From Limnochorda pilosa (GTDB lineage: Bacteria > Bacillota > Limnochordia > Limnochordales > Limnochordaceae), in contig NZ_AP014924.1 in assembly GCF_001544015.1 (NCBI RefSeq), positions 434,001 to 498,000 on the forward strand: 64,000 nt of DNA. The letters are read 5' to 3'. Made by a program: the position numbers and the translations under genes. The notes under the pieces are model-generated. The model made no database searches. It was not told the DNA's origin and saw only the letters and a program-made list of their open reading frames with translations. Shown piece after piece: positions 4,671 through 19,609 of this stretch. How positions within the stretch are numbered: the first letter of the stretch is position 1; each line of letters opens with the position of its first letter.

Positions 4671-4797
4671 CGGCAGGATCCACGGAGTTTTGCATAGAAG
4701 CGTCTCGTAAGTCGGAAACGCTGCACGATAATTGGCGCGAGGGGCGCGAGACCCGCGATTGCGGTTTCGCTGGGGCAGACAGGACTGCGGCTGCCGG

Positions 4798-6546
4798 ATG
4801 CGAAGCTTCTCCCCCGAAAGCGGGGGAGGACCAGTGGATCCCAGCCGAGAGCGTTTCGCCATTCCTCATGGAGGAGCGGCGGTCCTGCTGGCCCGCCTCT
4901 GCCAGCAGCTTCGAATCCGTCCCATCGTGAACGCCATGGTCCGGTGGGATCCCACTCAGTGCAAGGTCTCGCCGGGAACGCTCGTCGTCGCCCTCACCCT
5001 CAACCTCCTGCTGGACCGGGAGCCCTTGTACAAGGTGAAGGAGTTCTACCGCCGGCGCGACCTGGGGTTGCTCTTCGAGGAACCGGTGGACGTGGAGGCC
5101 TTGAACGACGACGCCCTTGGGCGGGCTCTCGATAGGCTGGCCGAGATCGACCTTCCCCAGATCCTCCAGACCGTAGGGCTCTCGGCGGTCCACCTGGGTG
5201 AGATGGAAGTGCGCTCCGTGCACGCCGACACCACCTCCGTCTCGGTCTACGGCGGGTTTGGGCCAACAGAGGGTGACCGGAAGTTCCTCGAGGCACACCC
5301 GGGCAAAGAGCTGGTGAGGATCAGCCGAGGTTACAGCAAGCAGCATCGACCCGATCTGAAGCAGTTCATCACCGGCCTGGTGGTGACGAGCGACGGGATG
5401 CCCATTCTGGGTACCATCCGCGACGGGAACCTGAACGACCAGATCTGGAACCGGGAGATCCTCGAAGCGCTGAAGACCAGCTTCCTGGACCCGCGCCGGG
5501 TGGTCTACGTGGCCGACTCGAGCCTTGTCACTACCAAGAACCTGGATCTCATGGCCCAATCGAAGGTGCGGTTCATCTCCAGGCTGCCGGAACGCTTCAA
5601 AGCATGCGATGAGGTGAAGGCCCAGGCATTCGCCGAGAACCGCTGGCAGCCCATCGGGGTGCTGGCCAAGACCCGCAGGGACGGCGCGTACTACCAAGGG
5701 GTCTCCTATCTTCACCCCATCGACGGGCGCCCCTACCGGCTGACGGTGATCCGCTCCTCGGCCCTGGACGGGCGCAAGAAGAGGAAACTCGACAGCGTCA
5801 TCGGCAAGGAGCGGGAAGAACTGAGCAAGGCGGCCAGGGAACTCATGCGGCAGCGTTTCAACTGCCGGGCCGACGCCGAGGCAGCCCTTGCCTCCTTCCA
5901 GGAGAGCTACCAGGACGCCCTGCACACGTACAAGGGGCAGGTGCTCGCCTACACCGAGTTTCTACGGCCCCGGGGCAGGCCGCGCAAGGAGGTGGTCTAC
6001 CCCAAGAAGACCCACTACCAGGTGGAACTCCGGCTCTTCGCACCGAGCGAGGAGGCCAAGAAGGCGTGGCTCGAACGGGAGAGCGCCTTCGTCTTGATCA
6101 GCAACCTCCCCGAGGAGGAATGGAGCGACACCGCCCTCCTGGAGGAGTACAAGGGCCAGACCAAGGTGGAGCAGGGCTTTCGGGTGTACAAGCACCCGAT
6201 CCTCGCCGAGGGCATCTTTCTCAAGAGCACGCGCCGCGTGGAAGCCTTTGCGTACGTGGCGACGCTCGCCCTCATGGCTGCCGCCTTCCTGGAGTATCGG
6301 GTGCGGCGGGAACTGAAAAAGCGCAAGCGGAAAGGGCTCCGCCTCCTGCGAGGCGACCGCGTCGTAGAACGTCCTGCCAGCCGGGCGCTCCTGGAGGAAC
6401 TCGCTTACATCCACATCCTTTGGCATATGACTCCCGAGGGCTACGGCCGCTATCTGCAGACCGACCTTCCGAAAGAACACCTCGACATCCTCGATCTCGC
6501 CGGCTTTGGGACGGAAATCTACGTTACGCCGATGACCGAGGTTTGA
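4798..6546 (+). CDS. IS1634-family (IS4-like DDE) transposase
   Basis: The 582-residue protein starts at ATG 4798; the frame is open upstream to TTG 4732, but copy 2 also begins at the equivalent codon (MRS-S-ES). The DDE triad is seen as D144 in HADTTS, D240 in YVADSSL and E458 in KGQTKVEQGFR, the last being the YREK-like signature region of IS4/IS1634 transposases. The C-terminal part has a predicted helix rich in basic residues and the usual LDLAGF ending. It appears full length and intact, unlike the second copy at the right of the window. With its left repeat split by the intron, this copy may be unable to transpose until the intron is lost or spliced from RNA. Confidence 0.93.
   Translation: MRSFSPESGGGPVDPSRERFAIPHGGAAVLLARLCQQLRIRPIVNAMVRWDPTQCKVSPGTLVVALTLNLLLDREPLYKVKEFYRRRDLGLLFEEPVDVEALNDDALGRALDRLAEIDLPQILQTVGLSAVHLGEMEVRSVHADTTSVSVYGGFGPTEGDRKFLEAHPGKELVRISRGYSKQHRPDLKQFITGLVVTSDGMPILGTIRDGNLNDQIWNREILEALKTSFLDPRRVVYVADSSLVTTKNLDLMAQSKVRFISRLPERFKACDEVKAQAFAENRWQPIGVLAKTRRDGAYYQGVSYLHPIDGRPYRLTVIRSSALDGRKKRKLDSVIGKEREELSKAARELMRQRFNCRADAEAALASFQESYQDALHTYKGQVLAYTEFLRPRGRPRKEVVYPKKTHYQVELRLFAPSEEAKKAWLERESAFVLISNLPEEEWSDTALLEEYKGQTKVEQGFRVYKHPILAEGIFLKSTRRVEAFAYVATLALMAAAFLEYRVRRELKKRKRKGLRLLRGDRVVERPASRALLEELAYIHILWHMTPEGYGRYLQTDLPKEHLDILDLAGFGTEIYVTPMTEV
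4809..4828 (+). promoter_or_regulatory. Hairpin inside the transposase start region
   Basis: An 8-bp perfect stem (CTCCCCCG/CGGGGGAG) with an AAAG loop covers codons 5-11 of the transposase. In IS copy 2 the same position (59610-59629) keeps the stem with a compensating pair change (CTCCCTCG/CGAGGGAG). Such covariation points to selection on RNA or DNA structure, plausibly limiting transposase translation; the role is inferred. Confidence 0.6.
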
Positions 6547-6738: not shown

Positions 6739-7020
6739 GTGCACAACGGCTTTCTGGTCCACGCTGCAGGCGACTCGGTGGGTGTAGCCGTAGTCGACAT
6801 CGAGCCCGGCACTGCGCACGGCGTGATCCAAGAGGGTGGGCAAACCGTTGAGGTGGAGGTCGTCGAGCCCGTTCCTCTGGGGCACAAGGTCGCCTTGCAG
6901 GACATCGAAGCGGGCCGGTTGGTCACCGAGTACGGTGTTCCCATCGGAAAGGCGACCCAGGCCATTCGCGCAGGTCAGCACGTGCATACCCACAATCTGA
7001 AGAGCGCGAGGTGGGCCTGA
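6739..7020 (+). CDS. UxaA-family small subunit (SAF domain)
   Basis: This 93-residue protein most likely starts at GTG 6739 behind GGAGGTG; the frame is open from 6685. It is a single SAF domain, the N-terminal domain of altronate/galactarate dehydratases, recognised by [21 protein letters not shown] and [19 protein letters not shown]. In many bacteria the UxaA N-terminal SAF domain and the catalytic domain are separate genes, as here; its stop overlaps the ATG of the large subunit. The two should form one sugar-acid dehydratase. The upstream DNA (6599-6738) contains an AT-rich stretch around 6665-6685 that probably includes the promoter. Confidence 0.85.
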
Positions 7021-8174
7021 TGGGAGAGAGCTTTCTCGGTTACCGGAGGCCGAACGGCGCCCTGGGCGTCCGCAACCACGTGGCCATCATCCCCGTGGAC
7101 GACATCTCTAACGCGGCGGCCGAGGGGGTGAGCCGGATCATCCAGGGCACCCTCGCCCTCCCGCACCCCTACGGGCGGCTCCAGTTCGGGGCGGACCTGG
7201 AGCTCTTCTTCCGCACCCTCATCGGCACGGGCGCCAACCCCAACGTCGCGGCGGCGGTGGTCATTGGCATCGAGCCCAACTGGACCCAGCGGGTGGCCGA
7301 CGGCATCGCCCGCACGGGCAAGCCCGTGGCGGCCTTCCACATCGAGCGGTCGGGAGACCTGAAGATCGTCGAGCAGGCGGCCCGAGCGGCCAAGGAGTTC
7401 GTGCACCAGGCGTCCGAGCTGCGGCGCGAGGAGGCGCCCGTGGCGGAGCTGGTGATGAGCATCAAGTGCGGCGAGTCGGACACCACCTCGGGGCTCGCCT
7501 CCAACCCCACGGTGGGGAAGGCGGTCGAGCGCGTGGTGGCGGCCGGCGGGACCGTCCTCTTCGGCGAGACCTCGGAGCTGACGGGCGGCGAGCAGATCGT
7601 GGCCGAGCGGATCAAGGACCCCGCCGAGCGCGAGAAGTTCCAACGGATCTTCGACGAGTACCAGCGGGCGATCCTGGAGCAGGACGCGGACCTCCTGGGA
7701 TCCCAGCCCACCCAGGGCAACATCGCGGGGGGACTCACCACCATCGAGGAGAAGGCGCTGGGGAACATCCAGAAGATCGGGAAGGCCCAGGTGGACGGTG
7801 TGCTGGAGATGGCCGAGGAGCCCCGGGGGCGTGGCCTCTACTTCATGAACACCTCGTCGGCGGCCGCCGAGGCCATCACCCTCTTCGCGGCCGGCGGGGC
7901 GGTGCTGCACCTCTTCCCCACGGGGCAGGGGAACATCGTGGGGAACCCCATCGTCCCCGTGATCAAGCTGAGCGCCAACCCGGTCACGGTGCGCACCATG
8001 AGCGAGCACATCGACCTGGACGTCTCGGGGATCCTCACCCTGGAGGAGAGCCTGGAGCAGGCGGGCGACCGGCTGATGGACCTCATTCTGCGGACGGCCT
8101 CGGGCCGCAGGACGGCCGCCGAGGTCCTGGGCCATCGGGAATTCGTTCTCACCAAGCTCTACCGGAGTGCGTGA
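7020..8174 (+). CDS. UxaA-family sugar-acid dehydratase, large subunit
   Basis: The 384-residue protein starts at ATG 7020, overlapping the stop of the SAF gene (a GTG at 7011 is an alternative). It matches the catalytic part of altronate/D-galactarate dehydratases: [19 protein letters not shown] at the start, [16 protein letters not shown], then the conserved [16 protein letters not shown] and [16 protein letters not shown]. These enzymes are metal-dependent and remove water from a sugar acid to give a 2-keto-3-deoxy acid. The exact substrate cannot be told from sequence. A GntR regulator and an enolase-superfamily enzyme follow, which supports a sugar-acid catabolic operon. Confidence 0.87.
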
Positions 8175-8256
8175 GGGCGCGCCCGGACGAGCGAATGGCA
8201 GACCTTGCACGGCATGGAGGCATGCCTTGGTGGGTCGGGAGACAGGGGGTGACGTC

Positions 8257-8979
8257 GTGGCCAGCGACGGGAGGGCTTCGGCCACGGGGGAGCTGGCGAC
8301 GGAGGAGCCGCTGAAGGTGCAGCGGTTCCCCAACCTGACCGAGCAGGCGTACCACCTGCTTCGGCAGGAGATCCTGAGCAGGCGCCTGCGAGCGGGCGAT
8401 CGGCTGGTGGAGCGGACGCTGGGCGATCGCTATCGATTGAGCAAGACGCCCATCCGGGAGGCCATCGCCCGACTGGAACGAGACGGCCTGGTGGTGATCG
8501 TCCCCTCGCAAGGAGCCGTGGTTCGGCGGCTCGCACTGGGCGAGGTGAAGGACCTCCTCGAGTGCCGGCAAGCCCTGGACGCCTTCGCCGCCCGTCGGGC
8601 GGCCGAGCGGATCCAGCGTGAGGACGTGGTTGAGCTGGAGCAGATGCTCGTTGCCGCGGAGCGCGAACGGGTGAACGGATCGCCGGAGCGGTACCGGGAG
8701 CACGACGCCGCATTTCACGCCCGGATCCGGGAGATGGCCAGCAACGCCACCCTCCTCAGGGTCATGGAGAGCCTGGAGTCCCAGGTTCGCCTGGTGATGA
8801 CCAGCACCACGGGCCTGCCGGGGAGGGTGGGAGCGTCCATGGAGGAGCACCGGCGGATCCTGGAGGCCTTGCGCGCGAAGGACCCCGACGCCGCAGCCCT
8901 GGCGGCTTCGGAGCACGTCGCCCGCATGTTGGAGGCGGTGGAGGAGTACTGGCCCGTGATCGAGCGGGGCGACATCTAG
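8257..8979 (+). CDS. GntR-family transcriptional regulator, FCD subfamily
   Basis: This protein of about 240 residues starts at GTG 8257 behind AGGGGGTG; the frame is open further upstream. The N-terminal winged helix-turn-helix is clear (LTEQAYHLLRQEILSRRLR, then LSKTPIREAIARLERDGLV). The all-helical FCD effector domain follows with the metal-binding pattern of FadR-type regulators (HDAAFHARI, EEHRRILEAL, AASEHVARML). FCD-type GntR proteins commonly sense sugar acids, so it most likely represses the surrounding dehydratase genes. It is encoded on the same strand between the UxaA and enolase-superfamily genes. Confidence 0.9.
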   Translation: MASDGRASATGELATEEPLKVQRFPNLTEQAYHLLRQEILSRRLRAGDRLVERTLGDRYRLSKTPIREAIARLERDGLVVIVPSQGAVVRRLALGEVKDLLECRQALDAFAARRAAERIQREDVVELEQMLVAAERERVNGSPERYREHDAAFHARIREMASNATLLRVMESLESQVRLVMTSTTGLPGRVGASMEEHRRILEALRAKDPDAAALAASEHVARMLEAVEEYWPVIERGDI

Positions 8980-9024
8980 GAAGCCGGGTCCGTCCCAGGA
9001 AACCCCGGGGAGGGAGGCGACGCG

Positions 9025-10146
9025 GTGCGCGTCCGCAAGGTGGAGACCAGGCTCCTGGAGGCGCCGCTGGCGGAGCCGATGGGCGGTAGCGCCCGGCGCC
9101 CGCCCATTCGGTCGCGGCGGTTGCTGGTGGTCCGGCTCGAGACCGACGAGGGCGTGACCGGCTACGGCGAAAGCTACGGGACGCCCCGGTCGGTGAAGGC
9201 CATGGTGGAGGAGCTCTATGCCCCCTTCCTGCTGGGGGCAGATCCTCTGTCAGGCGATCCCCTGGCCCGGATGCAGCGGGAGGGGGTGGGCTACCACGGG
9301 CCCAAGGGCATGGTCTACGAGACGCTCAGCGCGGTGGACACGGCACTCTGGGACCTGAAGGGGAAGGCCCTGAACGCACCTTTGTCCACGCTCCTGGGCG
9401 GCGCCATCAGCGGTACGGTCGACTGCTACGCCGCCAGCGTCTACCTGGGGAGCGTGGAGGAGGCCGAAAGCCAGGCGGCCCGCTTCGCCGAGGCCGGTTT
9501 CCGGGCCATGAAGGTGAAGGTGGGGCAGGGACTGGAGCGCGATCGGGCGGTCTTCCGGGCGGTGCGCCGGCTCGTGGGCGAAGGGACCACCCTCATGGCC
9601 GACGTGAACGGGGTCTACGACGTGAAGACGTCGATCCGCCTCGGGCGGAGCCTGGAAGAAGACGGCCTCTACTGGCTGGAGGAGCCCGTCCCCGTGGAGG
9701 ACGTGGAGGGCTACGCTCAGGTGGCCCGGGCCCTCTCCTGCTACGTGGCGGGAAGCGAGGGCGAGTACACCCGCCACGGCTTCCGGGAGCTGATCGAGCG
9801 GGGCGGGGTGGACGTGGTGCAGCCCGACGTGACCCGCTGCGGCGGGGTGACCGAGACCTGGGCCGCCGCGACCCTGGCCTCGGCCTACCACCGCCGCTTC
9901 TCGCCCCATTGCTGGAGCTCGGTCTTCGGCTTGGCCGCCTCCACCCACCTGACCGCCGCCGCCCCCACCGGTCTCACCGTGGAGTACGACGCCCATCCGA
10001 ACCCCTTGAAGGACGCGCTCGTGGGTGCTCAGCTCAGCGCCGTGAGCGGCCGGCTGCCGGTGCCCGCAGGTCCGGGCCTGGGGGTTCAGGTGGACGAGGA
10101 GGCGTTCGAAAGGCTCACCCAGTGGGTGTCGGCTGTAGGAGGTTAG
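9025..10146 (+). CDS. Mandelate racemase/muconate lactonizing enzyme-family dehydratase
   Basis: This 373-residue protein starts at GTG 9025 behind GGAGGCG. It shows the enolase-superfamily layout: an N-terminal capping domain and a (beta/alpha)7-beta barrel. The KxK motif is at residues 163-165, metal ligands are in DVNG (D193) and LEEPV (219-220) and in the following SEGE segment, and a histidine lies in SPHCWSS (H295). KxK plus His is the catalytic pattern of the mandelate-racemase subgroup, which includes galactarate, gluconate and related acid-sugar dehydratases. With the neighbouring UxaA-type dehydratase it should dehydrate or epimerise a sugar acid. The next gene starts at the very next base. 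Confidence 0.9.
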   Translation: MRVRKVETRLLEAPLAEPMGGSARRPPIRSRRLLVVRLETDEGVTGYGESYGTPRSVKAMVEELYAPFLLGADPLSGDPLARMQREGVGYHGPKGMVYETLSAVDTALWDLKGKALNAPLSTLLGGAISGTVDCYAASVYLGSVEEAESQAARFAEAGFRAMKVKVGQGLERDRAVFRAVRRLVGEGTTLMADVNGVYDVKTSIRLGRSLEEDGLYWLEEPVPVEDVEGYAQVARALSCYVAGSEGEYTRHGFRELIERGGVDVVQPDVTRCGGVTETWAAATLASAYHRRFSPHCWSSVFGLAASTHLTAAAPTGLTVEYDAHPNPLKDALVGAQLSAVSGRLPVPAGPGLGVQVDEEAFERLTQWVSAVGG

Positions 10147-11646
10147 GTGAGCGCCGCGGAGGATCTCGCGGATGATCTTGCAGGCAGGCGAACTCAGAGG
10201 GCGAGGAGGGCGGGCCTCTTGGAGATGTTCATTGGCGGTAGATGGACCTCCTCAGGCGAGCAGGTGGACGTTCGAAGTCCGTACGACGGTCGCGTGGTGG
10301 GCCGCGTGCCCCTTGCCGGCTCTTCCGATGTCGAACGGGCCATCGCATCAGCAGTACGGGGCACGGCCGTGATGAGGGATCTGCCGGCCCACGAGCGGAG
10401 CGCGATCCTGAAGAGGACCGGCGAACGGCTCATGGAGCGCCTCGATGCCATTGCGGACCTGCTGAGCCGTGAGGTCGGGAAGACCATCAGAGAGGCCAGG
10501 GCGGAAGTCCAGCGGTCGGCGGGCCTCTTCTCCTGGGCCGCCGAAGAGGCGAAGCGTCTTTCCGGCGAGACCATACCCTTCGATGCTGCGCCGGGCGCGG
10601 AGGACCGCATCGGATTCTTTCTCAGGGTCCCAGTGGGGGTCGTCGCAGCCATCACACCGTTCAACGTACCGCTGGCCCTGGCAGCCCACAAGCTCGCACC
10701 GGCGCTTGCAGCAGGGAACAGTGTGCTCTTCAAGCCGACGACGGCCACGCCGCTCGCAGACCTGGAACTGGTCCGGGCGCTGGTGGACGCGGGACTCCCG
10801 CCGGACGCGATCAATGCCGTCACGGGACGTGGTTCGACGGTGGGGGACGCCATCGTCTCGGCGCCGCAGGTGCGCATGATCACCTTCACGGGGAGCCGCG
10901 AGGTCGGCCGGAGTCTCACATCCAGAGCCGGGTTCAAGAAGCTCACCATGGAACTCGGGGGCAACGCCCCCTGCGTGGTCCGGCCATCCGCAGATGTCTC
11001 CCGCGCAGCCGGGGCGATCGTACGGGGCGGCTACGCCATTGCGGGTCAGAACTGCATCTCGGTTCAGCGGGTGCTCGCACATTCTGCGGTCTACGCCCCG
11101 TTGATCGACGAGGTTGCGGATCGAGTCAAGAAGCTCCGGAGCGGAGATCCGCTCGATGAAGCGACGGACATGGGTCCGGTCATCAACGGGGCCGAGGCTG
11201 AGCGCATCGAAGAGTGGATCCAAGAGGCCGTGGGGAAGGGTGCCCGGCTGGTTACCGGGGGCCACCGGGAGGGGACGCTGGTCGAACCGACCGTCCTGGC
11301 TGACGTACCGCTCGACTGCCGCGTTTCCACCGAGGAGCTCTTTGGCCCGGTCGTCGCGTTCTACCGGGTCGACGACCTCGAAGAGATCGTCAGGATCGCC
11401 AACGGGGTGGACTACGGCCTTCAGTCTGGCATATTCACCCAGGACGTCGACGAGGCCTTCTGGCTGGCCCGACGGCTTGACGCCGGAGGCGTCTGGATCA
11501 ACGACGTCTCCACGTTCCGCGTTGACTTCATGCCCTACGGCGGGATGAAGGGAAGCGGTTACGGACGGGAAGGTGTCCGGTTTGCGATGGAGGAGATGAC
11601 CGAGATCAAGGTAATTGCCTGGCGTCTCAGGGCTCCGCAGATGTGA
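10147..11646 (+). CDS. NAD(P)-dependent aldehyde dehydrogenase (candidate sulfolactaldehyde dehydrogenase)
   Basis: This 499-residue protein has the catalytic glutamate E269 (MELGGNAP) and nucleophilic cysteine C303 (GQNCIS), the NAD-binding TFTGSREVG motif and EELFGPV. GTG 10147 has AGGAGG four bases upstream inside the previous gene; homologues begin near ATG 10225 (MFIGGRW), so the first 26 residues may be an extension. Base composition changes at this gene from the very GC-rich codon use of the upstream gene to that of the downstream sugar operon. It should oxidise an aldehyde made by the pathway, for example sulfolactaldehyde from the transaldolase at 18944. The family is certain; the substrate is inferred from context. 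Confidence 0.9.
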   Translation: MSAAEDLADDLAGRRTQRARRAGLLEMFIGGRWTSSGEQVDVRSPYDGRVVGRVPLAGSSDVERAIASAVRGTAVMRDLPAHERSAILKRTGERLMERLDAIADLLSREVGKTIREARAEVQRSAGLFSWAAEEAKRLSGETIPFDAAPGAEDRIGFFLRVPVGVVAAITPFNVPLALAAHKLAPALAAGNSVLFKPTTATPLADLELVRALVDAGLPPDAINAVTGRGSTVGDAIVSAPQVRMITFTGSREVGRSLTSRAGFKKLTMELGGNAPCVVRPSADVSRAAGAIVRGGYAIAGQNCISVQRVLAHSAVYAPLIDEVADRVKKLRSGDPLDEATDMGPVINGAEAERIEEWIQEAVGKGARLVTGGHREGTLVEPTVLADVPLDCRVSTEELFGPVVAFYRVDDLEEIVRIANGVDYGLQSGIFTQDVDEAFWLARRLDAGGVWINDVSTFRVDFMPYGGMKGSGYGREGVRFAMEEMTEIKVIAWRLRAPQM

Positions 11647-11760
11647 GGGGGTGATGGGAACCTAGCCAGTGCTAGAAACCTGAAGCGTCGTGGCTTCGTT
11701 GACGTTCGGACGGAACGTGATTCTCGACGGCGAGTTCGTACAAGAGGGAGGGATAGTTGA

Positions 11761-13029
11761 ATGCGTCGTACCCCCATGGGGTGGATGGTCCTTACGCTCG
11801 CCCTATGCCTCAATCTCTCCTCCGTCGTCACTGCCCAGAGCACCCAGATCACGTTTCAGATGCTCCTGCAGGGCGGTGACATCGTCGCCAATCAGATCCG
11901 CGACATCGTCGCGCAGTTTGAGGCCAAAAATCCGGACATCGATGTTGACATCGTGTTCGTGCCGGGGACCAGTGGCGATCTGCACACCCGGTTGGTGACC
12001 CAGTTTGCCGCACGCGACCGGACCGTGGACGTGATGAGCATCGATGTCATCTGGCCGCCCAGCTTCGCACGGGCCGGATGGCTCGAGCCTCTCGACTCGT
12101 ACGTTGATTCGGAAGACGTCGCACGCTACACGCCTGGAGCGATTGACGCTGTCACCATCGATGGCAGGCTATACGCCATCCCCTGGTACTACGATGTCGG
12201 GCTCCTCTACTACCGAACCGACCTGCTAGAAAAGTACGGCTTCGAGCCACCGACTACCTGGGACGAACTCAAGGCTCAATCGGCTGCCATCACCCGGGGC
12301 GAGGGCGATCCGGTTCTCAATGGCCTCTTGTTCCAGGGAGCGCGCATCGAAGCGCTCACCGACACCTACCTTGAGATGCTTTGGGGTATGGGCGGTGACG
12401 TCTTAGGCGAGAACGGGCGGGTGATCCTGGACGATGGCAAGGGACTGGCTGCGCTCGAGTTGCTCCTGAGCATGGTGAACGAAGGGGTGACACCTCGGGG
12501 GATCGTCGAACAAGCAACCGACACGACCCGACTCAACTTCCAGGCCGGTCGCGCCGTCTTCCTCCGCAACTGGACGTATGCTTGGGCGCTCTTCAATGGC
12601 AGCGACTCGACTGTGCGCGGGAAGGTCGGGATCTCCACCCTTCCCAGCAACGCTGGGTACCCCACTGCGAGCACGCTCGGTGGATGGTTCCTGGCCATCA
12701 ATGCGACCTCGGACAGCAAAGAGGCGGCGTGGCGGTTCGTGGAGTTCATGACCGATACGCAGGCGCAGAAGCTAATGGGCGCCAGGCTGAGCTACCTGCC
12801 TTCGCTCCTTTCCGTGTACGGGGATCCCGAGGTCCTCGATGTCAACCCACAGTTCCAGGACCTTCTGCCCGTGGTCGAGTCGGCGCGTGCCCGACCCGCA
12901 GTGCCCGAGTACGCGGAGATCTCCGCCGCTATGCAAACCGCGCTTAACGCGGCGCTGGCCGGGCAGATCAGGGCAGAAGAGGCAGTCCAGCGGATGGTGC
13001 AGGATATTCGGCGCATTCTCGGTCGATAG
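11761..13029 (+). CDS. Sugar ABC transporter extracellular solute-binding protein
   Basis: This 422-residue protein starts at ATG 11761 behind GAGGGAGGG. An N-terminal signal peptide (about 26 residues, ending near TAQS) precedes a family 1 periplasmic-binding-type fold; motifs such as YAIPWYYDVGLLYYRTDLLEKYG and the TWDELKAQ segment are typical of sugar-binding proteins. It captures the substrate outside the cell for the two permeases that follow directly. The 114 bases between the aldehyde dehydrogenase and this gene show no other feature than the ribosome binding site. The ligand is unknown; in the pathway proposed here it would be sulfoquinovose or a glycoside of it. Confidence 0.92.
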   Translation: MRRTPMGWMVLTLALCLNLSSVVTAQSTQITFQMLLQGGDIVANQIRDIVAQFEAKNPDIDVDIVFVPGTSGDLHTRLVTQFAARDRTVDVMSIDVIWPPSFARAGWLEPLDSYVDSEDVARYTPGAIDAVTIDGRLYAIPWYYDVGLLYYRTDLLEKYGFEPPTTWDELKAQSAAITRGEGDPVLNGLLFQGARIEALTDTYLEMLWGMGGDVLGENGRVILDDGKGLAALELLLSMVNEGVTPRGIVEQATDTTRLNFQAGRAVFLRNWTYAWALFNGSDSTVRGKVGISTLPSNAGYPTASTLGGWFLAINATSDSKEAAWRFVEFMTDTQAQKLMGARLSYLPSLLSVYGDPEVLDVNPQFQDLLPVVESARARPAVPEYAEISAAMQTALNAALAGQIRAEEAVQRMVQDIRRILGR

Positions 13030-13042
13030 GAGGGGGCGGCGG

Positions 13043-14008
13043 ATGTCTGAGACGTCGGCGGAACGGCAGGTGATCGACGCTGAACGCCAGCGAGCCTTAG
13101 AACGGCAAGGGAACCGGCGCCGGATGGGCGGCTCGGAGGGCGGCTTCGCCGCCCTCCTCCTAGGCCCTACCGTCGCCTTCCTAAGCATCTTTGGACTATT
13201 TCCGCTGGGTCGGAGCGTTTGGATGAGCTTGAGGAGCTACAAGTTGAGTCAGCCGTGGACCGGTTTCCCCTTTGTCGGGCTGCAGAATTACCTTCGGATC
13301 TTTTCGGACCATGCGGTGATGGACGCCATCCGCGTCACCTTGGTCTACGTGCTAGTCACGGTCACGTTCCAGGTGATCTTCGGTCTCGTAATCGCGCTCC
13401 TGTTGCATCCCCCCTACCGGGGTCGAGGTGTGACGCGAACACTTATGCTCCTGCCCTGGACTCTTTCGCCCGTGCTGGCTGGGGTCATGTGGAGCTGGAT
13501 GTTCAACAGCTCGCATGGGGTGATCAACGACCTCTTGATCCGCCTGGGACTCGTCTCGCTGGAGCAACCGATCCTGTGGTTGGGTGACCCCGACCTCGCC
13601 CTCTGGAGTGTGATGGCCGCTGCCGTGTGGGGTGCTAGCTCCTACTGTGCTCTGCTCCTGCTGGCGGGTCTGCAGGGGATCCCAGACGAACTCTACGAAG
13701 CGGCGCGCATCGACGGCGCCTCAGGTATGCGCAGTTTCTGGACCATGACGCTTCCGCTGCTTCGCCCGGCGGTCATGGTCGCAGTAACCCTTCGCACACT
13801 CGGCGCGTTACAGGCTTTCGACCTGCCCTATGCCATGACCGGAGGCGGTCCCGGTAACGCAACGCAGACCCTACCCATGTATATCCACCAGTACACATTC
13901 GGCTTCCTTGACTTCGGTTACGGTTCGGCACTGGCCGTCGTTTTAATGCTGATCGGTCTTACTCTGGCCATAGTGTACGTCAGGGCGCTCTCGAGCGAGG
14001 AGGCGTGA
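13043..14008 (+). CDS. Sugar ABC transporter permease (MalF type)
   Basis: This 321-residue protein starts at ATG 13043 behind AGGAGGG; the frame is open well upstream inside the binding-protein gene. A basic N-terminal arm is followed by six membrane segments. The EAA loop reads EAARIDGASGMRSFWTMTLP, and the conserved FDLPYAMTGGGPGNAT lies near the end. It forms the channel with the MalG-type permease 3 bases downstream. No ATPase gene is in the operon, so a shared ATPase is likely. Confidence 0.92.
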   Translation: MSETSAERQVIDAERQRALERQGNRRRMGGSEGGFAALLLGPTVAFLSIFGLFPLGRSVWMSLRSYKLSQPWTGFPFVGLQNYLRIFSDHAVMDAIRVTLVYVLVTVTFQVIFGLVIALLLHPPYRGRGVTRTLMLLPWTLSPVLAGVMWSWMFNSSHGVINDLLIRLGLVSLEQPILWLGDPDLALWSVMAAAVWGASSYCALLLLAGLQGIPDELYEAARIDGASGMRSFWTMTLPLLRPAVMVAVTLRTLGALQAFDLPYAMTGGGPGNATQTLPMYIHQYTFGFLDFGYGSALAVVLMLIGLTLAIVYVRALSSEEA

Positions 14009-14011
14009 CCC

Positions 14012-14842
14012 GTGCGGATACCCCGTGTGAGGCGTACCTGGTTTTCTATTCTGGTGATACTCGGTGTGGGCATATCCATCGGCCCGTACGTCTGGACCCT
14101 CCTCACTTCCCTGAAGACAGAAGACGAGCTCTTCCAGGTTCCTGTCACCTACCTGCCCCAGGTACCGACGTTCGAAAACTACGTCAATGTGTTCGCTCAG
14201 AATCCCTTTGGACGGTTTATCCTCAACAGTCTGATCGTCTGCACGGTAGCGACCACGGTCGTCCTGGTGTTGGGCTCCTTGGCGGGCTATGCCTTCGGTC
14301 GCCTCCGGTTCCCAGGGAAGGGACCGCTCTTGCTCGGAGTCCTGGCTTTCTCTACACTGCCGGTGATGTCGCTCATCGTCCCCCTCTACACAATCGTTCA
14401 AGGCCTTGGATGGCTCAACTCGTACTTGGGGCTCATCATTCCTTACGTCACGTGGACGCTCCCCCTCGCCGTCTTCATCCTCACCAACTTCTTCAGGCAG
14501 ATTTCGAAGAACCTTGAGGAGAGCGCCTGGATCGACGGTGCCACGCGCCTGGGGGCGCTTCGCCATGTGATCGCGCCGTTGAGCGGTCCTGGTCTGGTCT
14601 CGGCGGCGACCATCACGTTCGTCAACATATGGAACGACTTTCTGATCGGCTTCACGCTCGTCTCGCAGCGGGAGATGCGGACCGTCACCGTCGGGATCAC
14701 CATGTACCAGAGCGAGTTTGCCTTTCCGTGGGGGACGATCACGGCTGCCGTCTCCATCGCGACCATTCCGGTCGCGATCCTCCTGCTGTTCGGTCAGCGC
14801 TGGGTCACCTCGGGGCTGACGGCCGGGGCTATCAAAGGATGA
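14012..14842 (+). CDS. Sugar ABC transporter permease (MalG type)
   Basis: This 276-residue protein starts at GTG 14012, three bases after the previous stop, with GAGGAGGCG as ribosome binding site inside the preceding gene. Six hydrophobic helices surround an EAA loop that reads EESAWIDGATRLGALRHVIAP. The typical ending TSGLTAGAIKG is present. It is the partner of the 13043 permease. Confidence 0.92.
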   Translation: MRIPRVRRTWFSILVILGVGISIGPYVWTLLTSLKTEDELFQVPVTYLPQVPTFENYVNVFAQNPFGRFILNSLIVCTVATTVVLVLGSLAGYAFGRLRFPGKGPLLLGVLAFSTLPVMSLIVPLYTIVQGLGWLNSYLGLIIPYVTWTLPLAVFILTNFFRQISKNLEESAWIDGATRLGALRHVIAPLSGPGLVSAATITFVNIWNDFLIGFTLVSQREMRTVTVGITMYQSEFAFPWGTITAAVSIATIPVAILLLFGQRWVTSGLTAGAIKG

Positions 14843-14914
14843 CAGGAAGGCCCTCCACTGTCGCGGTGTTCGTGACCAAGGCCACGCGGTGGGCAGACGA
14901 GGAGGAGGGGAATC

Positions 14915-16279
14915 ATGAAGAGAATAGGGCTTCTCTCGATCGCTCGAGCAACGTTCGACGTGGGAGCGATCGTGAGCGACCGCCGGTCCCTGGCGCGTCT
15001 TCTCGAGGACCCGCGAGAGGGAGCCGGTTCCCCCATCGAGGTTGTCCAGGTCGATCGGCCTATCACCCAGCCCGACGACGTACCGCAAGCTATCCGCGTG
15101 CTCCGAGAGGCCGATGGCCAGGGCGGGGCGCGCATCGATGCGCTGGTCGTGCACCAGGGGACCTTTGCCGATGCGTCGGTTCTCCTTGCGCTCGTTCAGG
15201 CGTTCCGGTCCCCTGTTATCCTGTGGGCGGTTCCCGAGCCGGTCTCTGAGACGGGCCGGCTGCGACTCAACTCGTTCTGTGGCGCGAATCTCGCAGCCAA
15301 TACGCTCCACCGTATCGGGCATCCGTACACCGCGGTCTACGGAGGCGCTACCACCGCCACGGCGCACGAGATCATGCAGCGGGCACGCGCCTTCGCGGCC
15401 GTGGAGAGGGTACGCAGGGCAAGCGTTCTGGTACTGGGCGAGGCGCCCACCGGTTTTTTCCCGTCGCAGCTGGACCCACTGCACGTGGCCGCAAGGTTCG
15501 GGTCGAAGGTGCGTCACGTACCGCTGAAAGTGCTCTTCGACCGGGCCAACGGGCTTCCGCAAGAACGCGTGGAGACCGTGTTTCATGAAGAGGCTGCCAC
15601 CTTGCGCGGCATCAACGAGGTCCCACAGGTCCAGGCCAACCAATCGATCCGAGCCCAGATCGCGATCCAGGACGCCTGCGAGGAAGTTGGTGCGGACGCT
15701 GTTGCCGTCGAGTGCTGGCCGGACTTCATGGTCCAGTTCGGCGGGGCGGCATGCTGGTCGATGAGCCGCTTGATCGACCGGGGGATCATGGCCGGGTGCG
15801 AGGCGGACGTCTACGGCGCGCTCACCATGATGATGCAGCACGAAATCACTGGGGAAGCCTCCTTCTTCGCGGACTTGGTCGAAGTGAAACGCGAAGAGAA
15901 CACGGGCACGTTCTGGCATTGTGGGGCCGCCCCGCTATCGCTTGGCAACCCTGAAGAGATTCGGGCCAGTCGACAACCTAACCGTCAGGTGGCGCTCACG
16001 CTAGACTTTGGACTCCGACCCGGACGCGTCACAGTCGCGAAACTCTACAGGGGCCGGGAAGGCGAGGCGCTCTTCATCACGACCGGCACGGCGCTCGCGC
16101 GCCCGGTCCAGTATCGGGGGAACACGATGGTGGTGCAATTCGATCGGGACGCTGGGGAACTGCTCGATCTCATCTTCGACGAGGGGCTCGAGCACCACTA
16201 CTCAGTTGCCTACGGTGACATGCGCCGCGAACTCACGCTGGTAGCGCGAGAGCTTCAGCTCCCCGTGATGGAGGGATGA
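14915..16279 (+). CDS. L-fucose/L-arabinose isomerase-like sugar isomerase (candidate sulfoquinovose isomerase)
   Basis: This 454-residue protein starts at ATG 14915 behind GAGGAGGGG. It has the three-domain arrangement of the FucI/AraA superfamily: an N-terminal Rossmann-like part, a middle domain with ADAVAVECWPDFM and GCEADVYGAL that supplies metal-binding acidic residues, and a C-terminal region with the conserved histidine in NTGTFWHCGAAP. These Mn-dependent enzymes interconvert an aldose and a ketose. It lies between an ABC importer and a GH31 glycosidase whose start overlaps its stop (ATGA). The kinase-free operon suggests that the ketose goes directly to the transaldolase, as in the sulfo-transaldolase pathway. 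The family is well supported; the substrate is inference. Confidence 0.82.
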   Translation: MKRIGLLSIARATFDVGAIVSDRRSLARLLEDPREGAGSPIEVVQVDRPITQPDDVPQAIRVLREADGQGGARIDALVVHQGTFADASVLLALVQAFRSPVILWAVPEPVSETGRLRLNSFCGANLAANTLHRIGHPYTAVYGGATTATAHEIMQRARAFAAVERVRRASVLVLGEAPTGFFPSQLDPLHVAARFGSKVRHVPLKVLFDRANGLPQERVETVFHEEAATLRGINEVPQVQANQSIRAQIAIQDACEEVGADAVAVECWPDFMVQFGGAACWSMSRLIDRGIMAGCEADVYGALTMMMQHEITGEASFFADLVEVKREENTGTFWHCGAAPLSLGNPEEIRASRQPNRQVALTLDFGLRPGRVTVAKLYRGREGEALFITTGTALARPVQYRGNTMVVQFDRDAGELLDLIFDEGLEHHYSVAYGDMRRELTLVARELQLPVMEG

Positions 16280-18894
16280 CGATGCAACCGTCCGAGTGGC
16301 TCGGGTTGCAGCCGCGTCCGGTGGATGCACTGACCCATATCGAGTCGATAAGGGCGCTCGAAGGGAGCGCAGGGATCGAGCTTCTGGGCCGTCTCGCCTC
16401 CGGGCGGGCCGTTCGGTTGCGAATCGAGGCGGCGCGGACAGGCGTGGTCCGCATCCAGTTCGGGCCTGTGGAGCGATACGGCGGGCGCAACGTGCCGAGT
16501 TCGCCAGGCCATGACAGCAAGGTAACGTTTCGGCCCGTGAACGACCCGCCTGGCGCGGAATCTGGACCCTCGGGCTTCGCTGAAATCGCCGACGCCCTGA
16601 AGGGGCCCCACAGATTCACCGCGAACGGGTTACGTCTCACGGTCAGTGGAGATCCCTTTCGTTTACAGATCGAAGAAGCAGTGAGTGGACAGCTGTTTCT
16701 GAAGACCGCCGACGGGGACACGGACGTGATGCTTCGCACACGGGTGCCAGGTTTCGCGTTGCAGCTTCACGCGGAATTACAGGGGGCGCTTCAGACCGAA
16801 CAGGCCGTGATGGGCCTCGCGGTAGGGCCTGATGAAGCCTTCTTCGGCCTTGGTGAACAGTTCGGCCCACTCAACCTGCGCGGGCGCCGAGTGCAACTCC
16901 TGAACCTGGACGCGATGGGAGTGGGAACCGACGCTGCGTACAAGAACGTGCCCTTCGTATTGAGTAGCCGCGGCTACGGTCTATTCTGGAACACCTACGC
17001 TCGCATGGTGCACGACGTCGCCTACCCTCAGACCAGCCTGTACAGCTACCGCGTGGTGAGCGACGAGCCCGTCTTCGACCTGTGGTTCTTCTACGGCCCC
17101 AGTCCCGGCGAGGTTCTCCGTCGCTACACGGAGTTGACGGGTCGACCCGAAGTGCCGCCCCTTTGGGCTTTTGGGTTATGGATGTCTCGCTGCTGGTACG
17201 AGACTCAGGAAGAGGTCGAGACGGTAGCCGCTCGAATGAAGGCCGAGAGACTCCCCTGCGATGTGCTTGTACTGGACGGGCGGGCATGGCTCGATCTGAG
17301 GACGCGCTGCGACTTCCAGTTCGATCGCACGCGCTACCCAGAACCGGAAAGTCTCGTCGCGGACTTGCGAGCGCTCGGAATCCGGGTTTGCCTCTGGGAA
17401 TACCCCTATGTCTCTGTACACAGCCGACTGTTCCCCGAGGCAGCGTCCAAAGGGTATCTGCTTCGAGACTCCTCAGGTAAGCCGTATATGATCCATTTCC
17501 CTAAGGAAGCGTTTAACCAGCAGCTGACAGCTTTCCCGGACAGCGGGATCGTGGACTTCACCAACCCCGAGGCGGTCCAGTGGTACCAGGAGCTACACCG
17601 TCCGCTCTTTCAAATGGGAGTCTCAGTTTTCAAAACAGACTTCGGCGAGCAGGTGCCGCCCGATGCGGTGGCCTCGAACGGGCTCACGGGAAGCGCGCTG
17701 CACAATGCATACGCCTTGCTTTACAATGAGGCCGTCTACGAGGCCACGCGAAGGTTCACCGGTGAGCCGGTAGTTTGGGCGCGATCCGGTTGGGCGTGCT
17801 CTCAGCGATTCCCGATCCACTGGGGCGGCGACCCCCCTGCAACGTGGGACGGCTTAGCCGCCACGATACGGGGCGGACTCTCCCTCAGCCTTTCGGGCTT
17901 CTCTTACTGGAGTCACGACATCGGGGGCTTTTACGGTCCCAAGCCGTCACAGGAACTCTACATTCGGTGGACCCAATTCGGCGTGTTCAGTCCGTTCGCT
18001 CGTTTCCACGGAACAACACCCCGAGAACCATGGTATTACGGTGAGGAAGCCATGTCCATCTTTCGCAAGTACGCGAAGATACGCTACCGCTTAATCCCGT
18101 ACTTGGTTGCTGCAGCGTGGGAGAGTAACCGTTCCGGGCTGCCGATGATGCGAGCCGTGATTCTTGAGGCGCCAGACCAGGAGGTGGCCAAGAGTGCTGA
18201 CCTTGAATACCTACTCGGCTCGGACCTCCTGGTGGCTCCGCTGACCCGGCCCGGAGGAGCGCGGCGGGTGTATCTTCCACCGGGCACGTGGATCGACGTG
18301 TGGGAGGGGAGGATACATCGCGGGCCCACACATATCGACGTCGTGGTGCCGCTCGACCGGATCCCCGTGTTTGCCAGAGGGGAGTCTGTCATCCCGCTGG
18401 GTAGGGGTGCCATTGGAGAGGAGATCCCCCACGTCGGGGAAGCGACGTGGAAGCCGGTCCGCCTGGAGTATTTCGCCGATCCCCAAACGCAATCAGGCGA
18501 CGCAAGCGTGGAGGTGTGGGCAGCCCTGGCAACATCAGTATCGGAGCGTTTCAGCGGGGAAGCCGCCAACGATCGTGTATCTGTCCCAGTACGGTATCAC
18601 CTGAAGCGTGACGGCTCAACATTGTCTCTCTGGCAAACTGGGACCGATCCGTGGACTGGATGGCTGCGCTGGCATGGGATCGACGTGGAGAAGGTAGAGC
18701 GCGTTTGGGTCAATGGTCAAGCCTGCCCGCGGATGGATCCATTCGATCCTGGAGCAAGCCTATTTGACCTCGAAGCAGGCAAGGAGGGTAGCGGTGTCGG
18801 GTGGCACAGAAAAGGACGGGTCCTTTCGATTCCCGTGCACATCCTACCTGGCGGTGTGATCTGTCACGTCGAAGTGGCATTGGCTGCGAACTGA
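16276..18894 (+). CDS. GH31 alpha-glycosidase (YicI-like)
   Basis: This 872-residue protein starts at ATG 16276, overlapping the isomerase stop. Family 31 features are clear: nucleophile D455 in VFKTDFGEQVP and acid/base D519 in IHWGGDPP, plus SGFSYWSHDIGGF and FARFHG. The KTDFGE motif resembles the alpha-xylosidase YicI more than the sulfoquinovosidase YihQ, which has an ADFGE motif. However, the stretch that follows the LDG motif contains several arginines (GRAWLDLRTRCDFQ), unlike the YicI pocket. Without a signal peptide it should act in the cytoplasm on an imported alpha-glycoside. The C-terminal 200 residues form the usual beta-sandwich domains. Codon use is clearly less GC-rich than in the flanking regions. 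Confidence 0.9.
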   Translation: MTMQPSEWLGLQPRPVDALTHIESIRALEGSAGIELLGRLASGRAVRLRIEAARTGVVRIQFGPVERYGGRNVPSSPGHDSKVTFRPVNDPPGAESGPSGFAEIADALKGPHRFTANGLRLTVSGDPFRLQIEEAVSGQLFLKTADGDTDVMLRTRVPGFALQLHAELQGALQTEQAVMGLAVGPDEAFFGLGEQFGPLNLRGRRVQLLNLDAMGVGTDAAYKNVPFVLSSRGYGLFWNTYARMVHDVAYPQTSLYSYRVVSDEPVFDLWFFYGPSPGEVLRRYTELTGRPEVPPLWAFGLWMSRCWYETQEEVETVAARMKAERLPCDVLVLDGRAWLDLRTRCDFQFDRTRYPEPESLVADLRALGIRVCLWEYPYVSVHSRLFPEAASKGYLLRDSSGKPYMIHFPKEAFNQQLTAFPDSGIVDFTNPEAVQWYQELHRPLFQMGVSVFKTDFGEQVPPDAVASNGLTGSALHNAYALLYNEAVYEATRRFTGEPVVWARSGWACSQRFPIHWGGDPPATWDGLAATIRGGLSLSLSGFSYWSHDIGGFYGPKPSQELYIRWTQFGVFSPFARFHGTTPREPWYYGEEAMSIFRKYAKIRYRLIPYLVAAAWESNRSGLPMMRAVILEAPDQEVAKSADLEYLLGSDLLVAPLTRPGGARRVYLPPGTWIDVWEGRIHRGPTHIDVVVPLDRIPVFARGESVIPLGRGAIGEEIPHVGEATWKPVRLEYFADPQTQSGDASVEVWAALATSVSERFSGEAANDRVSVPVRYHLKRDGSTLSLWQTGTDPWTGWLRWHGIDVEKVERVWVNGQACPRMDPFDPGASLFDLEAGKEGSGVGWHRKGRVLSIPVHILPGGVICHVEVALAAN

Positions 18895-18943
18895 ACGCCG
18901 CGAAACGGTTCGTGTCAGCAACGGATAGCAGAGAGGTGAGAAC

Positions 18944-19609
18944 ATGGAGTTGTTCTTGGATACAGCGCAGGTGGATGAGATCCGGGAGGCAAGAGATTGG
19001 GGAGTCCTGGATGGCGTCACCACCAATCCGTCACACGTGGCTGCTTCTGGGCGGCCATTCCTAGAGGTGGTACGCGAGATCTGCGCCCTGGTCGACGGTC
19101 CGGTCAGTGCCGAGGTGACTGCAACCCTGGCCGACGAGATGATGGAGCAAGGCCGACTGCTTTCGCGGGTTGCGCCGAACGTGGTGGTAAAGGTACCGGC
19201 CACCAGAGAGGGCATCAAGGCGATAAGGCAGTTCTCGGACGAAGGGATCAGTACAAATGCTACCCTGGTCTTCACCCCTGCTCAAGCGCTGTTGGCTGCC
19301 AAGGCAGGCGCTACGTACGTGAGTCCGTTTGTTGGAAGGCTTGACGCCATCCAGCACCACGGAATGGAACTGGTCGAGCAGATCCGCCGTATCCATGACA
19401 ACTACTCATTCCCAACGAAACTACTGGTGGCGGCGGTGCGCCATCCCGATCACGTGGTGGAGGCGGCGCTGATTGGTGCAGATGCCGCCACCTTGCGCTT
19501 AGATGTTCTTCGGTCTCTCTACGAACATCCGCTTGTCAATATAGGATTGCAACAGTTTCTAGATGACTGGGCTCGCATCCCGAATGCGTTTCGACGGTAT
19601 GAATTGTGA
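18944..19609 (+). CDS. Fructose-6-phosphate aldolase/transaldolase-family enzyme (candidate sulfofructose transaldolase)
   Basis: This 221-residue protein starts at ATG 18944 behind GAGGTG. It belongs to the short TalC/FSA transaldolases: GVTTNPS near the start, the Schiff-base lysine K83 in NVVVKVPAT, then STNATLVFTPAQALLAAKAG and YVSPFVGRLD. Such enzymes cleave or transfer a dihydroxyacetone unit from a ketose. It is the last gene of the operon, 49 bp after the GH31 gene. In the sulfo-transaldolase pathway the equivalent enzyme converts sulfofructose and glyceraldehyde-3-phosphate to sulfolactaldehyde and fructose-6-phosphate. A generic transaldolase role is the alternative. Confidence 0.88.
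   Translation: MELFLDTAQVDEIREARDWGVLDGVTTNPSHVAASGRPFLEVVREICALVDGPVSAEVTATLADEMMEQGRLLSRVAPNVVVKVPATREGIKAIRQFSDEGISTNATLVFTPAQALLAAKAGATYVSPFVGRLDAIQHHGMELVEQIRRIHDNYSFPTKLLVAAVRHPDHVVEAALIGADAATLRLDVLRSLYEHPLVNIGLQQFLDDWARIPNAFRRYEL

Follow-up and report, generated by a model that had tools for sequence, protein, structure and literature searches.

Can a single bacterial operon both cleave a sulfonated plant sugar and desulfonate the product? As a rule, half of the carbon taken up leaves a sulfoglycolytic bacterium as an exported C3 sulfonate, which other species have to finish, and sugar cleavage and desulfonation in one operon would let a single organism use all the carbon. The question is raised by a locus of Limnochorda pilosa, whose genome is one contig of 3.82 Mb. 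The window analyzed is a stretch of 64,000 nucleotides (positions 434,001 to 498,000 of NZ_AP014924.1), and coordinates below refer to it unless stated otherwise. A sequence-only reading had described seven of its genes as a kinase-free sugar operon with the logic of the sulfo-transaldolase (sulfo-TAL, Sft) pathway. We found the operon to be longer, opening with genes for a putative sulfolactate sulfo-lyase (SuyAB), and propose, at a probability of about 0.72, that it completely degrades a 6-sulfonated hexose, for which sulfoquinovose or one of its glycosides is the likeliest candidate.

Results

The operon consists of 11 co-directional genes on the + strand (6739-19609) in the order suyA, suyB, gntR, a gene of the mandelate racemase/muconate lactonizing (MR_MLE) superfamily, an aldehyde dehydrogenase (ALDH) gene, genes for the binding protein and two permeases of an ABC importer, and genes for an isomerase, a glycosidase of family GH31 and a transaldolase (TAL). 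Intergenic gaps range from −10 to 114 bp, with −4 to 114 bp among the seven genes from ALDH to transaldolase and −10 to about 80 bp in the four upstream genes; the MR_MLE gene abuts the ALDH gene at 0 bp. All genes named in the sequence-only reading were recovered at their places as long uninterrupted open reading frames. The start of the operon, however, had been set too far downstream, and suyA, suyB, gntR and the MR_MLE gene were overlooked. Pfam and NCBIfam searches of the operon products detected no sugar kinase, as claimed. Promoter and terminator scans gave matches not above chance.

The first two genes, suyA (6739-7020; SAF domain PF08666, GTG start in a frame open from 6685) and suyB (7011-8174; PF04295 and PF20629), encode separate SAF small and GD_AH large subunits and overlap by 10 bp. 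SuyB, a protein of 387 residues from the UxaA family, was 61-65% identical to 13 plasmid-borne homologues, members of sulfolactate/DHPS operons among them, with the next match at 42% or less. The same break was repeated in 398 genomes of the phylum (60-72% versus at most 46%). The four high-identity neighbourhoods that we inspected were all sulfonate operons: hpsN-hpsO-suyA-suyB in Cupriavidus, suyAB with SlcC-like, ComC-like and exporter genes in Paracoccus, suyAB with ALDH, SlcC-like and ComC-like genes in Rhodococcus (the latter two with a GntR gene beside suyAB), and a plasmid cluster of Sinorhizobium mexicanum, a strain listed as sulfofucolytic with SuyAB homologues (PMC12421959). The UxaA/GarD superfamily keeps four cysteines, sulfolactate sulfo-lyase being the exception (PMC6336799). 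In our alignment, the four columns read C/C/C/C in E. coli UxaA and GarD and I/R/I/C in the window protein; three of the four cysteines are thus replaced, and the same replacements occur in the homologues from sulfonate operons. SuyA was 46-56% identical to SuyA-like proteins that adjoin SuyB elsewhere and 76% to a second copy in the genome. The identity gap of SuyB, its neighbourhoods, the cysteine replacements and the adjoining SAF gene together lead us to assign the pair, on sequence grounds, as the subunits of (R)-sulfolactate sulfo-lyase. This assignment also accounts for the missing adjacent sulfonate exporter, which had been counted against sulfoglycolysis: SuyAB probably desulfonates the sulfonate inside the cell, in place of its export. 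A GntR/FCD-type regulator gene (8257-8979; PF00392 and PF07729) follows suyB.

The isomerase (14915-16279) matched no Pfam model, and its only NCBIfam match was SftI (NF048012). As a sequence search of the PDB also came back empty, a fold prediction was made (pLDDT 93), which matched L-arabinose and L-fucose isomerases (AraA/FucI). In a tree of 62 sequences, the window isomerase grouped with a Sulfobacillus sequence and one from the Bacillota metagenome-assembled genome CF.Solf.bin.16 (89), then with Moorella isomerases (95), and this group joined the canonical SftI/SqvD proteins in one 29-row set (97). Its place in the tree is therefore in the SftI/SqvD clade and not among xylose/fucose isomerases. 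In CF.Solf.bin.16 (L059:7570-14770), the SftI-like isomerase gene is followed by genes for a class II aldolase, an FGGY kinase, SuyAB and SlcC-like and ComC-like enzymes. Genes for an alpha-L-rhamnosidase (GH78) and a sulfatase lie ahead of this array.

Similar isomerases were seen in further settings. Moorella acetogens (L055/L042 Moorella sulfitireducens, L044, L045, L047) carry loci with an SftI-like isomerase, a PFK-type kinase, a class II aldolase and an ABC importer, resembling a sulfo-EMP2 set, and encode elsewhere in the genome a SuyAB 68-70% identical to that of the window. These gene sets predict sulfosugar use with desulfonation in acetogens. At another locus (L049:5524-10540), an SftI-like isomerase, an aldolase and an FGGY kinase adjoin a glycyl radical enzyme whose best specific model is sulfopropanediol dehydratase HpfG, at 550 bits for a cut-off of 1000.

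The transaldolase (18944-19609; PF00923) is of the FSA type described before, and its Schiff-base lysine Lys83 was kept in all 42 aligned TAL/FSA sequences. Together with the other transaldolase of this genome it formed a pair that was sister (92/87) to the sulfofructose transaldolases (SF-TALs), a long-branched clade to which BmSF-TAL belongs. His31 and Ala164 occurred in 8 of 8 SF-TALs and in both transaldolases of this genome, and in none of 31 others; Ala164 sits at what we take to be the position of the phosphate-binding serine of generic transaldolases. We propose that the window enzyme is a sulfofructose transaldolase. The gene of the second enzyme (L174:8843-9541, at 2.081 Mb), the only other transaldolase of the genome, adjoins a nucleoside hydrolase and an SDR gene and lies about 13 kb from a second suy locus.

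At this second locus (2.094-2.098 Mb) the whole suyA-suyB-gntR-MR_MLE block recurs, with identities to the window of 98% for SuyB and 96% for the MR_MLE protein, and is accompanied by ComC and a TctA/TctC importer. Across the 398 genomes, all other MR_MLE proteins were at most 41% identical to that of the window (9025-10146; PF13378 and PF02746). Sequence and alignments displayed the signature of the mandelate racemase subgroup, with KVK (KxK), D/E/E metal ligands and an Asp/His dyad, a residue set that would be suited to abstracting the alpha-proton of sulfolactate.

Such a reaction would address a specific stereochemical problem. The breakdown of sulfosugars such as sulfoquinovose and sulfofucose leads through (S)-sulfolactaldehyde to (S)-sulfolactate, but SuyAB acts specifically on the (R)-enantiomer. 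In known systems two dehydrogenases, SlcC and ComC, bridge (S)- to (R)-sulfolactate. Neither is encoded in the operon, and the best SlcC match in the genome (46%) belongs to a frame of 555 residues, a length that would fit phosphoglycerate dehydrogenase; no close SlcC was found. The MR_MLE enzyme is a one-step candidate, proposed to act on (S)-sulfolactate as a racemase or lyase. The term 'sulfolactate racemase' was absent from the literature searched.

Two groups of MR_MLE genes were considered as relatives and rejected. In Paracoccus aestuarii (L140:14238-15143), an MR_MLE gene follows a suyAB-SlcC-ComC-exporter cluster; its product is only 25% identical to that of the window and perhaps SfcF-like. 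A conserved operon of Halanaerobiales and other anaerobes (L046, L048, L060, L079, L092) combines an SftI-like isomerase, GH31, MR_MLE and an ABC importer with a PfkB kinase, a class II aldolase and an aldehyde:ferredoxin oxidoreductase (in L092 an ALDH instead). Its isomerases fall outside the group of the window and SftI and its MR_MLE proteins reach 24-30%, so it is of no use as substrate evidence; it appears to represent an undescribed sugar route of uncertain substrate.

The GH31 protein (16276-18894; PF01055) keeps both catalytic aspartates, and its best homologue was 45% identical. It had been called YicI-like, which holds for the overall score only (510 on NF007940, cut-off 606): the −1 subsite loop DCFW of YicI is absent and replaced by DGRAW, within an Arg-rich loop of its own, GRAWLDLRTR. 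The ALDH (10147-11646; PF00171) came closest to the NCBIfam model of lactaldehyde dehydrogenase, with a score of 517 bits that stayed below cut-off. Of the two positions proposed to contact the sulfonate, one is a histidine, as reported for B. megaterium SlaB, a residue also usual in the lactaldehyde dehydrogenase subfamily. The importer is encoded by genes for a binding protein (11761-13029; PF01547) and two permeases (13043-14008 and 14012-14842; both PF00528). The nearest solved structures of the binding protein were MalE3 (41%) and then SmoF, a sulfoquinovosyl glycerol-binding protein (40%).

Discussion

Gene content, the identity of SuyAB, the clade of the isomerase and the duplication of the suy block are the parts of our proposal that the sequence shows; the sugar substrate and the route below are inferred. 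The ABC importer would take up a (glycosylated) sulfosugar, from which GH31 would release the free sulfosugar, and the SftI-like isomerase would convert sulfoquinovose to sulfofructose. The transaldolase would then pass the dihydroxyacetone moiety on to glyceraldehyde-3-phosphate, a reaction that needs no sugar kinase and would yield fructose-6-phosphate together with (S)-sulfolactaldehyde. Oxidation by the ALDH, a proposed sulfolactaldehyde dehydrogenase, would give (S)-sulfolactate, which the mandelate-racemase-type enzyme may convert to (R)-sulfolactate or cleave itself. SuyAB would finally split (R)-sulfolactate into pyruvate and sulfite, and the sulfite would be exported or oxidized by proteins encoded elsewhere in the genome. 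The genome encodes TauE-family proteins, three PF00174 proteins of the sulfite oxidase type and one sulfite/nitrite reductase, none of them adjacent to the operon. One TauE-family gene (C1:1506103-1506872) is interrupted by a TAG stop that divides it into two parts and is possibly a broken exporter.

The sulfo-transaldolase logic is supported by the isomerase clade, by the sister position and two exclusive residues of the transaldolase, by the SuyAB genes that open the operon and by SmoF as the second-best solved relative of the binding protein. Several observations weigh against it. The isomerase scored 290 bits on NF048012, well below the cut-off of 700, although the isomerase of a canonical YihQ-TAL-YihU operon was under this cut-off too (382 bits). 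The transaldolase is closest to the other one of this genome (61%) and then to housekeeping enzymes. It has Arg132 where SF-TALs have Trp, so that their Trp-Lys at 132-133 is not shared; its identification as SftT is favored by the tree, which does not place it as a generic transaldolase, and by His31 and Ala164, but with Arg132 it is a candidate SF-TAL at most. The YihQ sulfonate site (Q262, Q288, R301, W304, Y508; QQRWY), largely retained in the YihQ proteins of canonical operons, reads C/D/gap/C/F in the window GH31, so that none of the five sulfonate-binding residues looked for was found. A YihQ-type sulfoquinovosidase is the usual companion of sulfo-TAL enzymes, not a strict requirement. 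The GH31 substrate is nevertheless the weakest link of the pathway. The ALDH does not belong to the RlGabD type, and the other of its two proposed sulfonate positions is occupied by Ala. DUF4867 (SftX/SqvB), another usual companion, was missing from the family search of the 11 operon products, as noted before. With no YihQ motif, no DUF4867 gene and an SftI score below cut-off, the locus is not classed here as a canonical Sft operon. The earlier sulfo-transaldolase reading is thus supported in part, by the isomerase, the transaldolase and SuyAB, while the locus departs from canonical Sft in a product that is probably desulfonated and a GH31 without the YihQ site.

A further point concerns the history of the locus. 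DNA similarity between the two suy blocks stops at 10132, the end of MR_MLE and hence the MR_MLE/ALDH junction, so the sugar operon could be the older part and the suy module an addition to it. Carried further, the locus would be two unrelated units, a mobile suyA-suyB-gntR-MR_MLE module inserted before an independent sugar operon starting at the ALDH gene, a scenario to which the DUF4277-domain transposase-like gene just upstream of suyA (4732-6546) would also lend itself. We consider it unlikely: no base pair separates MR_MLE from ALDH, the ALDH product expected from an isomerase-transaldolase route is the enantiomer of the SuyAB substrate, and CF.Solf.bin.16 independently couples a related isomerase to SuyAB.

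A sugar without sulfonate was also considered. GH31 would free xylose or a 6-deoxyhexose, the isomerase would form the ketose, the transaldolase would release glycolaldehyde or lactaldehyde for oxidation by the ALDH, and the two UxaA-family genes would together encode a sugar-acid dehydratase in split form. The lactaldehyde-type ALDH first prompted this idea, with quinovose as the 6-deoxyhexose, and the missing sulfonate site of GH31 and the generic Arg132 fit it as well. It was set aside once SuyAB was recognized and now seems quite improbable, given the identity gap, cysteine pattern and neighbourhoods of SuyB, the isomerase clade, His31 and Ala164 of the transaldolase, and a GH31 that lacks the YicI loop.

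That the MR_MLE protein is an SfcF-like sulfosugar-acid dehydratase and the operon part of an Entner-Doudoroff-type sulfofucose or sulfoquinovose route is very improbable, even though SfcF, which dehydrates sulfogalactonate in the sulfofucose pathway, shows the same two Pfam domains and suyAB is linked to clusters of this kind (PMC12421959): an MR_MLE fragment encoded in the S. mexicanum cluster is only 31% identical to the window protein, no SfcH-, SfcD- or SfcE-type gene was found in the operon or seen at the second suy locus, and the isomerase and transaldolase would be superfluous.

We thus favor degradation of a 6-sulfonated hexose via isomerase, transaldolase and SuyAB. The most far-reaching form of this proposal, that MR_MLE alone replaces SlcC/ComC as an (S)-sulfolactate racemase or (S)-specific sulfo-lyase and makes the operon a self-contained route from sulfoquinovose to pyruvate and sulfite with a hitherto overlooked stereochemical step and a new type of GH31 sulfoglycosidase, is put forward tentatively, and we would sooner expect it to fail in some part.

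Parts of the route have been met in other combinations. Canonical Sft/Sqv operons of Bacillota (our controls L062, L067, L068, L070, L072, L084 and L088) share the SftI-family isomerase and transaldolase and the lack of a kinase. They differ in a YihQ-type GH31, a YihU-like reductase and the SF-TAL Trp-Lys, whereas the window encodes an ABC importer besides the ALDH and SuyAB, and its GH31 is of another kind. In the tandem sulfofucolytic-sulfolactate sulfo-lyase pathway of Paracoccus wurundjeri (PMC12421959), sulfosugar breakdown is likewise joined to SuyAB and an ABC importer, but it is of the Entner-Doudoroff type (SfcH/D/F/E) with SlcC/ComC, in contrast to the isomerase and transaldolase of the window operon. 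The SlcC/ComC-SuyAB cassettes of Chromohalobacter, Paracoccus and Rhodococcus resemble it in SuyAB with GntR regulators; in place of SlcC/ComC the window operon has MR_MLE, and the second locus has ComC without a close SlcC. Closest are the extended sulfo-TAL clusters with SuyAB reported bioinformatically in Thermotogae and Chloroflexi (PMC9594981), which also bring together a FucI-family isomerase, a transaldolase and SuyAB, with sulfite and pyruvate as products and no sulfonate export. Compared by description only, so that traits may be shared, the window differs from them in its lineage, a GH31 without the YihQ site, Arg132 of the transaldolase and an MR_MLE tied to suyAB. By this analogy the operon would work like an extended sulfo-TAL pathway, the principle of which is already known, and its sequences mark it as a variant in which GH31 is unusual, the transaldolase is less specialized and MR_MLE joins as a partner.

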